Assembly (NCBI RefSeq): GCF_020921035.1 | Contig: NC_063150.1 | Coordinates: 9,486,001-9,550,000 of the forward strand | Reading direction: 5' to 3' | From: Rhodamnia argentea | Lineage: Eukaryota > Streptophyta > Magnoliopsida > Myrtales > Myrtaceae | DNA length: 64,000 nucleotides | Part shown: positions 7,512 through 61,400 of the stretch, one piece after another | Position numbering within the stretch: the stretch's first letter is position 1 | How the letters are laid out: every line of letters begins with the position of its first letter | The notes under the pieces: generated by a model | Databases searched by the model: none | Told to the model about the DNA's origin: nothing | Seen by the model: the letters and a program-made list of their open reading frames with translations, nothing else | Position numbers and translations under genes: made by a program

Positions 7512-8328
7512 GCATAAATCTATATGATCGCCATAATAACTCAGTGAAGTTTTTGATACCTTCTATTGCTTTTTTTTTAATTCCATGTTTTTTTTTTATG
7601 TATGAACTCGCATAATCTTTTTTAGTATCTTTTTCTTGATTTCCTTGCATAATCTTTTTCAATATCTTGAGATAATTGATCCAATATTCGCTTGATTTTG
7701 TGCATCTAAGCGCGTCATAAAATTGTATGTCATGCTTTGATTTACATGTTGGACAAGTATTCCTGCACCGTTCTTACCAACTGTTATAGCGTTTTTATTA
7801 GAGAAATTCTTACACATGTCAGAATAAACTCTAGTTTTTACAAGACCGGTTTATCAAATCAACACATAATGTCGTTCAACCGGCGTCTCGTGTGAAATCT
7901 AGTGCGCTTTCGATGGAGGTTCACACCCCCGTGCTAATTCAAGAACCGTCTAAACCGACTTGCCTGTTCGTTACAATCCAACTGAACTGCTGTCTAAAAA
8001 TGTTAAATTTGTCCAAGGAATGAAGCTAACAGAGAACAAAACATTCAATTCAAAATGCTCATTCCTAAGAAGAAAACCATACCAAACACCAGGAATGGAG
8101 ATAAGTGCAGGAATAGCAATTCCATTTATTTCCCATTTCCTTCCCCACAAAAAAAAAAAATGGCCTGAAGTTATTGCCATTCTCGCATGTCGGGGCTGCA
8201 CTTTTGCTCTAATCTGTGATGGCATATGCAGAGAATCGAGAAGAAAACACAAACATTCCCACTCCGAATCATCAAGCAAGCAGTAAAACCAGACACAGAT
8301 GACATGTTCATAAAACAGAAGCATAGCG
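7512..8328. other. Intergenic between CVVM copy 2 and snoRNAs
   Basis: T-rich stretches near 7560-7690, then ordinary AT-rich sequence. A 140-codon frame on the minus strand (7971-8393) overlaps the snoRNA at its start and matches no family I know; it is probably chance. Confidence 0.4.
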
Positions 8329-8409
8329 GTTGTGTCAGATTCACATATTTCAGCACCTGATGCGTCAGCCAGGGATAACTGTAAATACTTCATGTCTCGT
8401 CATCCACAC
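8329..8409 (-). ncRNA. Box C/D snoRNA, snoR38-like, degenerate copy
   Basis: Paralog of the intact gene at 19319-19398. It keeps the guide CAGTTATCCCTG and the D' box CTGA directly after it, and the terminal D box CTGA followed by CACAAC. The C box has changed from GATGATGA to GATGACGA, and the terminal stem loses a pair (GTGTG against CACAA pairs only partly). The guide is complementary to CAGGGAUAACUG of 25S rRNA in the peptidyl-transferase region. Whether this copy still makes a stable snoRNA is doubtful because a C-box change weakens the kink-turn. Confidence 0.7.
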
Positions 8410-8514
8410 GTTTTTGCTTTCCGAAACTACGATGAGCAGACATGAAAAAACAAGAACGAGACCTAAACAAGACAAGACATCGTTCGACTCGTCGAGCCGG
8501 GGATATACAGAAAA

Positions 8515-8612
8515 GGCCTCAAACCGTCCTAGTTCAGAAATCTAAACACCAAAAGCCAAGCCCATAAAAACTTTGCCTTCAGGATTTTATTCCAATTTGT
8601 CATCACTGGCTA
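8515..8612 (-). ncRNA. Box C/D snoRNA targeting 18S ACCGUCCUAGU, degenerate copy
   Basis: Paralog of 19583-19680. C box GTGATGA is intact and the guide ACTAGGACGGT is identical, but the D box reads TTGA instead of CTGA and the outer stem is reduced to about GCC/GGC. The inner D' box CTGA after AATAAAATC is kept. Loss of the canonical D box suggests weak or no activity. Confidence 0.65.
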
Positions 8613-8672
8613 AAATTTAAAAGCCCAAAAAGAAGAAGAAGCTAATTAGATCACAAAACTATCAGAGAAGAG

Positions 8673-8768
8673 AGGCATCAGGTCTTCCTATTCAAAGTGT
8701 TGGATCATTATACTCAAAAAGCACAGCGTGGGTAGTCAACTACTGGAAAAAAAGCTCGTCACTTGCCC
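8673..8768 (-). ncRNA. Box C/D snoRNA with ATAGGAAGA guide (copy A)
   Basis: Paralog of 19740-19832. Terminal stem GGGCA against TGCC, C box GTGACGA, D box CTGA preceded by guide GAATAGGAAGAC. The 9 nt ATAGGAAGA can pair with UCUUCCUAU of 25S rRNA (the CUCUUCCUAUCAUUG segment). Box and guide elements are all retained, making this the best preserved of the three snoRNAs here. Confidence 0.6.
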
Positions 8769-8988
8769 TCTTCAAGCACAGAGATCCTCCCACTTCACCA
8801 ATCAAAACCATCCTTGGAAAAGTTCTCTTCTTATCGACAATGTGATTAACATCTGCATTGTTAGACGAAATTTGGGTGACACAGACTACAGAGAAAACGA
8901 GAGCAGATGGGAAAAACAGTGGTTTCGGGTTCGCATCAATGGAAGGCCAGTGACCATTAGGGCACTGCATATTCAGGGATGGGTGTTC

Positions 8989-9155
8989 TAGGGTTTGCAA
9001 TTGCTTTTGATTTGGACAAGGATGCCATTCTCTCTCTCTCTCTCTCTCGCCCGCTCGCTCGTCTGGCGGTGGAATGAGGACGGTCCAATACAACCCGGCG
9101 AATACAAGACAGAAGTTGGGGCCACGGGCCGCGGGCCATGGGCCGTGGCCCGAAA
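8989..9155 (-). promoter_or_regulatory. Telo box, GA run and GGCC-rich region upstream of snoRNA cluster A
   Basis: On the minus strand AAACCCTA (telo box) lies at 8996-8989, a GA run at about 9050-9030, and a string of GGGCC/GGCCC words at 9119-9152 further upstream. Telo boxes and Site II (TGGGCC) motifs mark plant snoRNA and ribosomal-protein promoters. No clear TATA box is seen, unlike the paralogous cluster near 21050. Confidence 0.4.
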
Positions 9156-13201: not shown

Positions 13202-13455
13202 ATTCAGTCCTAAATTTTTTGTATTAATTGACATAGACGTTGATTATCCAACGTGGCACGACTGACGCCGACGTAGATATTTTATAGATATTTTAAAAAA
13301 AAATATCTACATCAACGCCAACCGTTTGCAAAAAAATGTCTACGTCGGTGCCAATCGTGTCACGTTGGATAATCGATGTCCACGTTAGTTATTTATGTTA
13401 AAATTGATCGGATAGACTCAATTGATACAAATGTAAAAAATTTAGGACTGAATTG
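13202..13455. mobile_element. Inverted-repeat MITE-like element
   Basis: Near-palindromic: the left arm (TTCAGTCCTAAATTTTTTG, then TTGATTATCCAACGTGGCAC and GCCGACGTAGATATTTT) is followed at 13338-13455 by its inverted counterpart (ATGTCTACGTCGGTGCC, GTGTCACGTTGGATAATC, TTTAGGACTGAATT). The same end sequence occurs in other repeats (13440-13560, 43640-44310, 49390-49640, 51740-52170). Confidence 0.7.
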
Positions 13456-17375: not shown

Positions 17376-19300
17376 ACCACGGGTCGTGCTCCGTTATGCA
17401 CTTGTGTGCGGGGTTTTAGCAGGACGAGTTCTTCTCCTCTTCTTTGATTTAACCACTAGATTAGCACTTAGCAGGATAATTACGATGGGCGCGAACGAAA
17501 AAGGAGGAAATGAAATCGTCCTTGTCCTCTTGGCCGGAAATCGAGATCGTCCATTTTTGTATATCCATGTAGCCTTAGATGACACCTCCCAAGATCAGGT
17601 CGTCTCTTTCCCCTCTTTGGTCAAACGATAGACGACCCAAATTCAAAGTAGTCAGAAATGGGCCCAGGCGCTTTTAAATAAATTTTTTTAATTTCTTTTT
17701 CTTTTTTTTTTCTTTTTAATTGAGGATTGCCGACTCACTCTTGCTAGCCATGCTCTTGCCAACCACAGGCGAGGGTCGGCAACCCTCGCACAGACCCAAG
17801 AGGGCTGCAACGCCCTCACCTTACTCAGATATGGTGAGGGCATTGTGGCCCCCACGTGGGGCCGATAAGGTCTACTAAGGACCATAGCAAGCCATCAATT
17901 AAAACATAAAGTAAAAAAATAAAATAAAATTTAAAAATTATTTATGTTAGTGCCGGTCGTACTATATATAAATGTGATAAACACGTGGATCTGATGAATA
18001 TGGTTCAACTCATATTGACTTATTTAACCCCGTTTTGACTCATTTTCGTACATATAAATCTAACAACCAATACCTAAGTCATACCCGACTTAACCCGTAT
18101 TACTTAAACACTTCTATATTTAACTAAATCATGAAATATTTATATCTTATAAAGAACAATGATATTGCTAAAATATTTTCATACAATACAATTCTAATGA
18201 TTATTTTATAATTTATTTAATTTTAATTTTATTCGTATTCTTCTTTTCTTTTTTTTTTTTTTTTTCTTTTTCCAAAATCCAAGCAGCCGAAGATGGTAAC
18301 TAGCAGCAGCGATCGTCAGCGACGAGCGAAGGTGGATTGTGGCGAACGGCGACGACAGGCAACGTTCTACTTCTTCGAACAGTTTATTTATTTTTTAACT
18401 TTACCATTAGTTTTTCTTTCTTTTACTTATAAAAAAACATAAACTAATAAATTTTACAAGCTAAGTAAATTGTAAATGAGTTAGCTTTATCGAACTAAAT
18501 AGTGCAAATAGATCCAAAGACAAACTAATTTATAACCCACATACAATTTGACTTAAAATTTATATCAATTAACAACTCACTTATTAAAACTTAACTAACC
18601 CATATTTGATCAATTTTCTTAAATATGAAATTTTCAACCCATATTGACAAGGGGTCCACGTAACCAAAATTAGCTAGATGAACGCAATTGCCATAAATAC
18701 AAAATGTTTTAAGATTAAATTGGCATAATTAAAAAATTTAAGGCTGAATTGATAAAAATGTAATAGATTTAAATTTATTTTTTTTACACTTTTCCGCATT
18801 AAAAGGTGGTTCTGAAGATCTTTATCAACAGCTACTACTCCCGAAGTTGTCGCCATTTCTCTATGGACTGATTCTTCAATTCTTCTTCGTTTTCTAGTCC
18901 CTTCTGCGTCCAGAATGGGTTCACTCCGCAGACTGCAAATTATTCTTGTGGTCTTCGAACTGTGAAACACCAACACAAACACGAGTCTCATCTGAGGTGT
19001 CGCTTCCGAACCAAGCTCATTCAATCCATGGGGGTCGCTCAACCTTGGCCATATATGACCGAGAGGTGCTCATTCGGTGAGTAGGTCCCATGCTGAAGCT
19101 GTAAAGTTAACCTAAAACAGGGCAGCTCAAGATGCATCGATGATTCAACGGGACATAACATATGTAAGTAGAGAAATGAGAAAGGAAACAGAGCAAGGGC
19201 TGAATTGAGAAGAATTGAGAAGAAACGTCGAATGTTCCGCCCTAAAATTTTTCAATTGAGAAGAAACGTCAAATGTTCCGCCCTCCAATTTTTCAAGCAA
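17376..19300. other. Repeat-rich intergenic DNA
   Basis: Includes a GC-rich patch with inverted words (GCGAGGGTCGGCAACCCTCGC type, 17740-17880), AT-rich DNA with TGACTCATTT-like words typical of the TGACCC repeat family, a T run at 18245-18268 and an end of the GGACTGAATTGG repeat near 18700-18790. The 122-codon minus frame at 18674-19042 reads into that repeat and is rejected as a gene. Confidence 0.45.
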
Positions 19301-19318: not shown

Positions 19319-19398
19319 GTTGTGTCAGATTTACATATTTCAGCACCTGATACATCAGCCAGGGATAACTGTAATTTTTATGTCTCATCATCCACAAC
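19319..19398 (-). ncRNA. snoR38Y: Box C/D snoRNA snoR38-like (25S Gm in CAGGGAUAACUG)
   Basis: Perfect 6 bp terminal stem GTTGTG/CACAAC, C box GATGATGA directly after the 5' stem and D box CTGA directly before the 3' stem. An internal D' box CTGA follows the 12 nt guide CAGTTATCCCTG. The guide is fully complementary to CAGGGAUAACUG of 25S rRNA domain V. The fifth-nucleotide rule selects the middle G of GGG, equivalent to yeast Gm2815, which is known to be guided by snR38. This site lies next to the peptidyl-transferase centre. About 80 nt, normal for the class. Confidence 0.88.
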
Positions 19399-19582
19399 TT
19401 TTTGCTTTCTGAAACAAAGATGAACAGACGACCAAAAAAAAACAAAAGACCAAACAAAACAAGACAATTGTTTGACTCTTATTCCACCATTTGCATGGCA
19501 CCGATCAATACCATCTATTGATTGAGAAATGGAGGAAACAGATACACACGTGTGAGCAAGAACGCACAGTTATACACAGAAA

Positions 19583-19680
19583 AAGCCTCAGACCGTCCTA
19601 GTTCAGAAATTTCAACACCAAAAGCCAAGCCCATAAAAACTTGCCTTCAGGATTTTATTAAAGTTCGTCATCACTGGCTT
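19583..19680 (-). ncRNA. Box C/D snoRNA targeting 18S ACCGUCCUAGU
   Basis: Terminal stem AAGCC/GGCTT, C box GTGATGA, D box CTGA. The guide ACTAGGACGGT next to the D box is complementary to ACCGUCCUAGU, which in plant 18S rRNA follows GAUUAGAU (helix 24, the 790-loop region). The fifth-nucleotide rule predicts methylation of the U in ACCGU. A D' box CTGA follows AATAAAATC, conserved in the 8.5 kb paralog; its target was not found. I do not recall an established name. Confidence 0.8.
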
Positions 19681-19739
19681 CTGTTTAAATCGATAACGAA
19701 AAACAAAACTAATATGATGAGAAAAACATCAGAGAAGAG

Positions 19740-19832
19740 AAGCATCAGATCTTCCTATTCAAAGTGTTGAATCATTATACTCAAAAGCAGAGCATGAGTA
19801 CTCAATCACTAGAAAAAGCTCGTCATTTGCCC
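19740..19832 (-). ncRNA. Box C/D snoRNA with ATAGGAAGA guide
   Basis: Stem GGGCA/TGCTT (two G-U pairs), C box AATGACGA (one change from consensus, shared by the paralog at 8673-8768), D box CTGA. The guide GAATAGGAAGAT pairs for 9 nt with UCUUCCUAU in the CUCUUCCUAUCAUUG segment of 25S rRNA. The pairing is shorter than usual, so the target is less certain than for the other snoRNAs. Conservation of box and guide words between the two copies supports the call. Confidence 0.62.
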
Positions 19833-20238
19833 TCTTCAAAGACAGATCCTCCCACTGCACAAATTAAAACCATCCACAAGCAAGCAGGCATATAAACACA
19901 TTACCTGATAAAAAGTATCTGCATTATCAACAAAGGAGAGAAGATGGTAAAGAAAGTGGTTTTGAATTCGCATCAATGCACGATGCTAGGGTACTCCATT
20001 TATAGGGATGGTGTTTAGGTACAGCACTCGGATGAAAACCAAAGCAGGCTCACAATTTCAATTCAACTCTCTCATAAACAAAACAAAAATCATTTCCAAA
20101 TAAAATACAAAACAAACCAAAGTGAATCATAGCAGTTTGCTCATTGTCCCAAGTGAAGAAAGCAAAACCAATCCAACAAACCTAGTTCGAAAATTCGGTC
20201 AGGTTTCTAACCATAACAGAAGTGTTTGAGCTTGTGAC

Positions 20239-20239
<1 letters not shown>

Positions 20240-20273
<34 letters not shown>
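20240..20273. repeat. (GA)n microsatellite inside snoRNA cluster B
   Basis: About 16 GA units on the plus strand, between the two upstream and three downstream snoRNAs. A similar run lies upstream of the three snoRNAs of cluster A near 9033-9050. Confidence 0.9.
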
Positions 20274-20274
<1 letters not shown>

Positions 20275-20482
20275 AGCTCAAAAGTGCTTGAAACACAATC
20301 ATTGGTGCTCCTCAAAGCAGTATTGAGAGAGTGAGATGGTTTATCATCATGGCCGCATCATCCTTCTCTCTCAACAAAACCTGAAGAACAATCAACAAGA
20401 GCATTGCAGAAACTGGAACAAAAACAGAGCAACAGCAGCAACAGATAGATTGAAAAAACAAAGCTTTTTTCTTGATTGAGGC

Positions 20483-20561
20483 AGGCATTCAGTATGAGTA
20501 GGAGGTTAGAAAATCATCAAATATTCATCAGATGATTTTTCTTGTCATCATCACTATGCCC
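20483..20561 (-). ncRNA. Box C/D snoRNA targeting 25S UAUGAGUAGGAGG
   Basis: Terminal stem GGGCAT/ATGCCT, C box GTGATGATGA, D' box CTGA followed by a C' box TTGATGAT, D box CTGA. The 13 nt guide CCTCCTACTCATA directly before the D box is fully complementary to UAUGAGUAGGAGG, a conserved 25S rRNA segment. The fifth-nucleotide rule selects the A of UAUGA. All four boxes are present and about 79 nt long, so this is a textbook double-guide layout. I cannot assign the accepted name. Confidence 0.85.
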
Positions 20562-20673
20562 AGCTCTCATCATTTTTCACCCACATCCACATTCCACACC
20601 CAAGACTTCTCCAAAAAAAAAATAATAATAATAAAGAAATAAACAAAGCAACTGCGATTTGATTGAATCGAGT

Positions 20674-20771
20674 GAGTTTCTCTCAGACAAATGCCTCTTT
20701 GTCGTCACGATTTTAAAAGAATGGATTCAATCGGACTCGTCATCATAAATTTGTTCATCACCGAGAAACTC
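20674..20771 (-). ncRNA. U15: Box C/D snoRNA, U15-like
   Basis: Perfect 9 bp terminal stem GAGTTTCTC/GAGAAACTC enclosing GGTGATGA near the 5' end and D box CTGA at the 3' end. A second strong C-box word is in ATGATGACGAGTC. The guide GAGGCATTTG ending next to the D box pairs over 10 nt with CAAAUGCCUC of 25S rRNA. The fifth-nucleotide rule picks the third A of CAAAUG, the site guided by U15 in animals (human 28S Am3764) and snR13 in yeast. The words GATGATGACGAGTC and AGAGGCATTTGTCTGAGA are, as I recall, shared with animal U15. Not present in cluster A. Confidence 0.87.
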
Positions 20772-21048
20772 CCAACTTGAAATCCAAAACAACCACCTTA
20801 AAAAAATCGACCTTGACACGAACAAGAATACCCCCATAATTGAACAATGACGAACAACATGCATCAGAAGGCCAAGCTCGACTATGGACAAACCAGAGCA
20901 ATCATAATTCCACCCTAAAAGCTACTTCGATTCTCTATGTTTTAATAATCAATCTGCAACCTAACCAAGGGGGGCATTGAGTACCTGACTGAGAGTCGCG
21001 AGGAGCTCAATGCTCGGCGATGGGGGGGAGGATCATGACGCCGTCGGA

Positions 21049-21210
21049 TTTTTATAGAGTCACGAGGCATGGGACTCTAGGGTTAGGGTTTTCGTCGTCG
21101 CTTCGCCTCGCCTCGCAAACTTCAAGAGGCCGAAGCGTAAGGGCGAAAAAGGCGCGGAACGGCGTTGTTATCAAGGCCTTTTGGCCCAATGGGCCCTATT
21201 AGGCCCACCA
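21049..21210 (-). promoter_or_regulatory. snoRNA cluster B promoter: Site II, telo box, TATA
   Basis: Reading the minus strand: three Site II words (GGTGGGCC, GGGCCCA, TTGGGCC) within 21183-21208, then a double telo box AAAACCCTAACCCTAGAG at 21092-21075, then TATAAAAA at 21056-21049. This order (Site II, telo box, TATA) is the known layout of plant polymerase II snoRNA gene promoters and co-regulates them with ribosomal-protein genes. Confidence 0.8.
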
Positions 21211-21548
21211 GGCTGGAAACTCAATTGGCGCGGGCTTCGACAAGCGCTTTCCCGTTTGGGCTCGAGCCCGCCCACTTAGGGAAGCCGGGCCAGCCCGACT
21301 CCCATCAATTTTATTTTTAAGAAGAAAATGTGATGCTTTTTGGTTGGGGTGCTTCGAAAAATGCAAGACACATGAAATTTAAAGGCCTAGCAATAAGGAA
21401 AACTAAGGAAAATTTTTCAGTACGCCCTCTCCCGACCAAAGTAACTCGCTATACACATACCATCACGGAGAACTTATTGGATTCAGTTCAAGAACATGTT
21501 ATCAAGAATAGAGCGAGGCTAGAGTCAGTAAGGCTAGCATAAAAAACT

Positions 21549-57374: not shown

Positions 57375-57688
57375 GGGATAAGTACACCGTGAGCCCAATA
57401 ACTTTCAAAATGTTCATTTAAGTGCCATAACTTTCAAAAATCGTTCACTTAAGTGCTACGTCAACCTGTTCGGCATCCATGTAAGCTTTTACAGCGTGCC
57501 ACATTAGCTTTTCCGGAGTGCCATGTCATCTTTTCGGAGTGTCACATTAGCTTTTCGGCGTTCACGTCAGCGATGACACTCAAGTGAACGATTTTTGAAA
57601 GTTATGGCACTTAAATGAACGTTTTGAAAGTCATAGCACTCAAGTAAACGTCGTACAAAAGTTATGACACCGATAGCGTGCTTATCCC
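57375..57688. mobile_element. Mutator-type MITE upstream of peptide gene 3
   Basis: Perfect terminal inverted repeat GGGATAAG/CTTATCCC with longer imperfect arms (GTGCCATAACTTTCAAAAAT and ATTTTTGAAAGTTATGGCAC are exact inverses except at the ends). Flanked by TAAAGCATTG at 57365-57374 and 57689-57698. The paralogous sequence upstream of peptide gene 2 has one TAAAGCATTA at 51251-51260 and no element. A 9-10 bp duplication and long arms fit the Mutator superfamily. 314 bp, no ORF. Confidence 0.85.
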
Positions 57689-58445: not shown

Positions 58446-61400
58446 AAATTATACTTATCGATTCTAAATAAATAGCCATTGAACCAAATTCAATTTGTGT
58501 GTCATGGTGAATAGCTTGCAAGTTTTTCGAAAAAGTCTTTGGAGGAACAAAGTGACATGGCTGAACAAGATAATATAGAGAGGAATCGTTAGACATGTTC
58601 TCGGTATAAAGTAGTTGTATGAGGTGAAAATCTTACGTACGGTTCTGGCATAGCGATGGGAATAGTGATGTTGTCATCGAAAGTAAGCATCTCTTGTAAA
58701 ATATAAGCAACACTAAATCCTCGAGAGTCCAAACCTCCATTTCTCCTACTTGTTGCCCAAACCTCCATCTAAACATCCATTTCTCAGCAACGGGATTTCT
58801 ATCCAAGCTATTAGGTGACTTATCGAACTTTATTTCCAATTAAGTAATCCAATCGAAAAAACATCAAACAAAAATTGGTAATTCAAAACTAATCGGTAGT
58901 TTAATTGGAGGAAGGTTTAACTTGCTTGAATAAAAGGTAGTAACTTCATATTAGTGTTGGTAAATTGGAAACGTAATTAAGGAAAGCCAATAAAATTTTG
59001 TAAAAGACAAAAATTTAGCAATTGTAATAAATAAAAACATGGCAAGTAACTCAAAAGAGTTGTGAACCCAAAACTCAAACGTTGTTGCTAATAAGTTTTT
59101 TCTAAAAAAAAAAAAAAAAGTTGGCAACTTAAACCGTTACTATGATTTTTTTAAATCATATGAAAAGCTGAAAAATTAAATAAAAATAATGAAGGTCAAT
59201 AAGTAACTCAAATTAGAGTTGGTAACCACATACTATGTGGGCATTTAACATGAGAGAAAGTAACGATTTTTCCTAGTTTAGGTTGATTATTTCCTGAAAG
59301 ATTAGTATATATTTAAGGCATTATTATACAAGGAAAAATAAAGTTAGTAGCTCCATAAAAAAGTTGGTAAATAAAAAAAATAACTAAATGTTGTCAAGTA
59401 ACTCAAACGAGTATGATTAAAAAGATTCACGCTATTTCCACCCCTTTATTAGTTCTTGACACCCCCTAGTCATATTAGATTGACTACATTATCGCTCATG
59501 GATCCCATTCTTGATAAAAGATTATTTCTTACATTTTTTCTTCTTTCTTTTTTCAATTTTGCTTGAAAGAAGACTTCTCCACATCTCTTCTATTGAGAAT
59601 TGGAAATCCTCAATCTTGCTTTTAACAAAGACAATCAAAAGCTACTAATGTGTGTATTGATTAAGTTATTATACATGGTAATATATGCACAAGTCGATAT
59701 GCCACCGATGCACCGAATGTTTTTGAAAGAAAGATCTGCTCCGCCAATGTTTAGAATGTTTCGCCAATCTTTATGAAGAACAAGATATTGGGTATTGAAG
59801 ATATCTACAAGCTAGAAGGATCTTCAGATAAGGTGAACATTTGGAAGGATCTTGATCGAGGTGAACATGTGTAGAAGAACAGGAATGTTTGTGATGGCTT
59901 GGAGGTATAATGATTAGGTGAACAATGAATGGACGTTTGTGAAGGTGAACAGCTTAGTAGAATCGCAATTGCTAATATACCTAGAAGGACTAGAAGAAAG
60001 ATCGGGTGCACCAATCGTTATCGAAGTAGCGGATCTTTGGCAGAGGGCGCTTGCCTTATAAAGATCAAGTCGAAAATTGTGACAATACCAAAGCTCCTTG
60101 TGAGTTCATTGAAGATGAGGAATTAACTATGATGCTGATGTGTTTGGAAGGTAATTGTATGCTGAAGAAGCCAAGAAAATTATTGGTTGCAAGTCAACCA
60201 CAAGGTTTTTCAGTGAATAACATCAAAAGACTACAAAGATCTAGATGTCTTAATTATGGAAAAGGGATCGTACAGATATTTACTCCTGTAAGGTGCTGGT
60301 CACTAGGCCTACTAACCGGATCTTTGATTTTGAAGAATATAGCCGCTATAAATATTGTGATAATATCAATGACCTAAGTTTAGCGAAAACTAGGTACAAG
60401 GATAAAAATCTTGACAAGAAGGAGAACAAATAAAAAATGACGAGGTGTTCATGATTACTAGGAGGTACCATGGTCAATCTATCATCAAGGTGACGTCTTT
60501 GCATGCTAAGATACTCAAGAGGACATTGGATTATTTCTCACAAGTCATCCTCATGGTTTTTTTATAAACAGCATCAACGAACCCATATTTCGGGTGAGAC
60601 GATGTTTATGTCGATATTATGTCATTGGTGATGAACATGAAAGGATGTTTGTTGGAGAAAAATTATAGCCGTTGGCGGGTAAAGATGCACACGTAAAGAT
60701 CGGGAAGTATATCGAGGAACAGGAACATGCATCTGTTAGCTTTGTTAGAGTAGTAGTATTAGAAAAGCAACCGAGTAGTAGTTTCAGCATAGTGTCGAAA
60801 AACAATTTGCAGCAGTTTCAACGGATCTCTAAAGGCTAGTTGGGCTGCTCAAGCTTCTTTTGCAGGAAGATTGAAGTTGTATATATAATGAAAGACCTTC
60901 TAGGCTAAAATTTTAGAGAAAGCACGATATAAAATGCATATACCGCTTGTGAGCCACTTCTCTCTCGTTGTTTCTCTGTTCTATGATCTTTCTCATCCGT
61001 AATCGTGTGAAAGATCAAGAGTACAAGAGTAAGAGCAGCAGCTGAGTCTTAATAGTGTGATCTATCAAGTAAAGTATTAATGCTTGCCAATTGAAACTTG
61101 TTGGGCTGATTACTAGTGGATTCCAATCCAAGCTGTGGCTGTTAGTTTCGTAGAGTGGATGTAGGCATTTCATATAAGCCGAACTACTATATATCATGTG
61201 TACTTGCATCTTACTTGATCTTTACTCAATCTTGCACACGCTCGGATATTGTTTTTTGAAACGTCTACTTACCAAATCTTTTTATATCATCTATTGTTTT
61301 TCCCATATTCTTTATACACTTCAGCACACAATGTTCTCATATTGCAAACATCTGCCGACCCGATCTCTACAATGCCTCTGTAAATGTTTGACCCAATGCT

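Follow-up and report, generated by a model that had tools for sequence, protein, structure and literature searches.

A five-gene box C/D snoRNA cluster in Rhodamnia argentea and a partly worn second copy of three of its members

We analyzed a 64,000-nucleotide stretch of the Rhodamnia argentea genome (contig NC_063150.1, forward-strand positions 9,486,001 to 9,550,000; here called the window and numbered from its first letter), which carries a cluster of five box C/D small nucleolar RNA (snoRNA) genes on the minus strand, at 20771-19319. The order along that strand is SNOR75 (U15-like), snoZ105, snoR64, snoR20, and snoR38. A second, partly worn snoR64-snoR20-snoR38 cluster lies at 8328-9144 on the same strand, ca. 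11,000 bases from the main locus. The snoRNA families, their sites, and the promoter type were all previously known, and the finding is real and ordinary.

Box C/D snoRNAs carry a RUGAUGA C box near the 5' end, a CUGA D box near the 3' end, and a terminal stem adjoining the boxes. In the main locus, CTGA served as the D box in all five units and RTGATGA as the C box in four, with the variant ATGACGA in snoR64, a unit that reaches past its Rfam match to that box. A sequence-only reading of this DNA had described five minus-strand units, each with a C box, a D box, and a closing stem, and all five were borne out. It had also proposed an Rfam/Infernal search as a check. A covariance-model search of the whole window at the curated Rfam thresholds gave six matches, all of them minus-strand box C/D snoRNAs, with four in the main locus (SNOR75, snoR64a, snoR20a, and snoR38) and two at 8.5 to 8.8 kb. 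Four of the five units therefore scored above gathering and resembled their families in both sequence and box layout. The units and their predicted ribosomal RNA (rRNA) targets are as follows (G-U pairs are included in the stem lengths).

20674-20771, minus strand: SNOR75 (U15-like), RF02539, 81.3 bits (gathering score, 50); C box 20761-20755, D' box CCGA 20734-20731, D box CTGA 20686-20683; 9-bp stem
20697-20688, minus strand: SNOR75 D guide GAGGCATTTG, predicted target 25S A2282
20744-20736, minus strand: SNOR75 D' guide GATGACGAG, predicted target 25S G2289
20482-20562, minus strand: snoZ105-like; C box 20554-20548, D box 20492-20489; 7-bp stem
20505-20493, minus strand: snoZ105-like D guide CCTCCTACTCATA, predicted target 25S A1377 (SnoR7 site)
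19734-19837, minus strand: snoR64, RF01163, 58.2 bits (gathering score, 45); C box ATGACGA 19826-19820, D box CTGA 19748-19745; 8-bp stem, set back 3 nt from the boxes
19758-19750, minus strand: snoR64 D guide ATAGGAAGA, predicted target 25S U2884
19581-19682, minus strand: snoR20, RF01193, 46.5 bits (gathering score, 42); C box 19674-19668, D box CTGA 19591-19588; 7-bp stem
19602-19592, minus strand: snoR20 D guide ACTAGGACGGT, predicted target 18S U1013
19319-19398, minus strand: snoR38, RF00213, 59.0 bits (gathering score, 45); C box 19391-19385, D' box CTGA 19358-19355, D box CTGA 19328-19325; 6-bp stem
19371-19360, minus strand: snoR38 D' guide CAGTTATCCCTG, predicted target 25S G2816

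Guides were defined by ca. 10 nt or more of rRNA complementarity ending at D or D', with the target nucleotide paired 5 nt upstream of the box. Overall, the six guides showed this arrangement, with 10, 9, 13, 9, 11, and 12 Watson-Crick pairs (13 in the snoZ105-like unit). All six sites appear in Table 1 of an Arabidopsis RiboMeth-seq study (PMC8053127). The earlier placement of conserved-rRNA guides beside D or D' boxes stood; its five guides were recovered, and it had missed the second SNOR75 guide, directed at 25S G2289. The target patterns of snoR64 and snoR38 (two of the six) recur in L001.

Upstream of the cluster, Site II, telo box, and TATA follow each other at 21257-21049 in the order that had been noted before, an architecture described for plant snoRNA genes (TeloSII) in PMC4660826. 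The elements, of which Site II was read directly in the sequence, are listed here together with a TATA box inside the locus.

21183-21207, minus strand: Site II elements (TGGGCC/GGCCCA), with one more at 21257
21078-21091, minus strand: telo box AAACCCTAACCCTA
21049-21056, minus strand: TATA box TATAAAAA
19997-20005, minus strand: internal TATA box CTATAAATG preceding snoR64, within sequence that shares homology with the second cluster's promoter region

Transcription would start near 21025-21020. With 6 telo boxes, 43 Site II motifs, and 50 TATAAA[AT] motifs across the window, single promoter motifs are not rare, and the weight rests on the ordered set just upstream of the snoRNAs. For two of the window's TATAA sites, 21056 and 8712, both a telo box and Site II occur on the same strand in the preceding 500 nt; the second of these sites falls inside the second copy of snoR64.

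The sequence-only reading did not include a paralogous cluster; self-comparison revealed one at 8.3 to 8.8 kb, matching the snoR64-snoR20-snoR38 part of the main locus in blocks of 312 bases (83.7% identity) and 180 bases (84.4%), and an additional 43-base match lies further upstream. Its features are the following.

9138-9144, minus strand: Site II GGCCCAT, 5' of the cluster
8988-8996, minus strand: telo box AAACCCTAG, likewise 5' of the cluster
8975-8968, minus strand: TATA-like TGAATATG, after the telo box
8667-8773, minus strand: second copy of snoR64, 49.8 bits in Rfam; guide, D box, and 8-bp stem retained; C box GTGACGA
8516-8610, minus strand: second copy of snoR20, 44.3 bits; guide retained; D box TTGA, not CTGA; 3-bp closing stem
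8328-8411, minus strand: second copy of snoR38, 43.6 bits, under the gathering score of 45; guide retained; C box ATGACGA, not ATGATGA; 4-bp closing stem

In the alignment of the two clusters, 271 of 304 columns were identical in the snoRNA intervals versus 216 of 290 in leader plus spacers (Fisher P = 3.6e-6; the limits of the three snoRNA intervals were set by eye, and gap columns were left out of the identity counts). Gap columns themselves numbered 133 in leader plus spacers versus 6 in the snoRNA intervals. As for the homology of the promoter region, the score was also reached by 7 of 4,000 random pieces of the window, while in a systematic tiling it was reached by 11 of 6,392 tiles, of which the locus itself accounted for 8 and the second cluster for 3. 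We read the second cluster as a copy that was probably under past constraint and two of whose members, snoR20 and snoR38, now appear to be weakening.

Several points weigh against the account of the main locus given above. The snoZ105 match (RF00145, 20559-20489) appeared at a looser threshold, with 41.5 bits versus a gathering score of 45, and deviates from the model in its middle part; because of this score, the unit is named snoZ105-like, by its guide and position. The snoR64 and SNOR75 D' guides have only 9 pairs, for which scaled shuffles give a chance expectation of ca. 0.07 and 0.04, respectively, per 5.2 kb of rRNA, and for the SNOR75 D' guide, a helix search allowing G-U pairs and any start gave another, longer run away from the box. 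Most rRNA target sequences and the numbering anchors were entered by hand, and 18S U1013 had no second site by which to check the numbering by spacing. Guide action at the six sites in R. argentea is predicted, and a single 1.7-kb precursor is putative; with a TATA box inside the locus, transcription might also begin at a second point.

Could the cluster be a nonfunctional relic, its boxes and guides retained by chance or recent duplication? The altered boxes and short stems of snoR20 and snoR38 in the second copy point that way, but all five units of the main locus have intact C/D boxes, stems, and guides, with one variant C box (snoR64), and the snoRNA intervals are better conserved than the spacers, so we consider this very improbable. 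Equally little credence is given to a transcript that is chiefly a long snoRNA-containing long intergenic noncoding RNA, like Arabidopsis lncCOBRA1, rather than a source of rRNA guides. lncCOBRA1 shares the promoter type and also contains snoRNAs, and its probes reportedly did not enrich rRNA (PMC9175010); nevertheless, the match of six guide regions to sites methylated in Arabidopsis is consistent with ordinary guides.

The extent of transcription is less settled. One precursor running from about 21025 to 19300, as had been proposed, is possible, and a shared precursor for all five snoRNAs is plausible, though putative. A second start upstream of snoR64, which would give two transcription units, is a live if less likely alternative, because the snoR64-snoR20-snoR38 module also stands alone at 8.3 to 9.1 kb, where it has a telo box and Site II to itself, and because the homology extends into promoter-like sequence in which the main locus retains a TATA box. 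The elements typical of such a promoter would be missing there: the only exact telo box of the main locus is the one at 21091, and the interval from 19633 to 21188 is free of Site II. The separate copy with its own elements and the homology into the promoter-like stretch make the main locus look like two modules placed end to end. It is conceivable, though we consider it rather doubtful, that the main locus records a fusion of two snoRNA units: once placed behind the U15-snoR7 module, the snoR64-snoR20-snoR38 module would have lost its telo box and Site II and come under the promoter of the former, while the free-standing copy decays.

Similar arrangements are known. In PMC5122169, Arabidopsis U15a-U15b-snoR7.1 and rice cluster 5 (U15a-U15b-snoR7b-snoR18b) likewise have U15-type guides (A2282/G2289) followed by a guide for the SnoR7 site A1377, whereas here there is one U15-type unit, and three further snoRNAs lie downstream. 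snoZ105 may be the SnoR7 homologue, judging from the common target only; snoR18 had no match in Rfam searches of the window. The units fall in the Rfam families SNOR75, snoZ105, snoR64a, snoR20a, and snoR38 (RF02539, RF00145, RF01163, RF01193, and RF00213). As in TeloSII plant genes (PMC4660826), telo box, Site II, and TATA precede clustered snoRNAs, although here no microRNA is established and the transcript is putative. Target sites (PMC8053127), plant cluster organization (PMC5122169), and promoter architecture (PMC4660826) are already in print. A named snoR64-snoR20-snoR38 cluster was found neither in a literature search nor in the available parts of PMC5122169, PMC7464842, and PMC8575768, a coverage too incomplete for any claim that it is unpublished; none of six names sought was present in PMC8351944. 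While the locus leaves knowledge of plant snoRNAs unchanged, it adds a carefully delimited snoRNA locus, for which six methylation sites are predicted, where annotation based on open reading frames (ORFs) may show a blank, and the pair of clusters may serve as a small natural example of duplication, joining, and loss of polycistronic snoRNA genes.

Soon past snoR38, a short direct repeat GGGCGGAACATTYGACGTTTCTTCTCAATT occupies 19283-19212 (minus strand), its copies beginning at 19283 and 19242, 41 bases apart. A protein-coding host gene for the cluster was unsupported, the downstream ORF 19069-18674 having no Pfam match (spliced genes were outside the analysis). Three of six minus-strand ORFs scanned matched Pfam: PADRE (10686-10171), PPR (15913-13856), and NPH3 (28133-26781). 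Alongside the plant snoRNA families, these matches suggest that the stretch is probably nuclear plant DNA. The looser Rfam threshold gave 12 matches in the window, 4 of which were sub-threshold, lay elsewhere, and were not snoRNAs. At 58609-58648 (plus strand), a plastid ndhA/ndhB group II intron domain scored 35.8 of 53 bits, perhaps a nuclear fragment of plastid DNA, and sub-threshold matches to the MIR2655 and MIR4372 precursor families at 57394-57637 (minus strand) and 13237-13379 (both strands) are perhaps inverted-repeat transposons.
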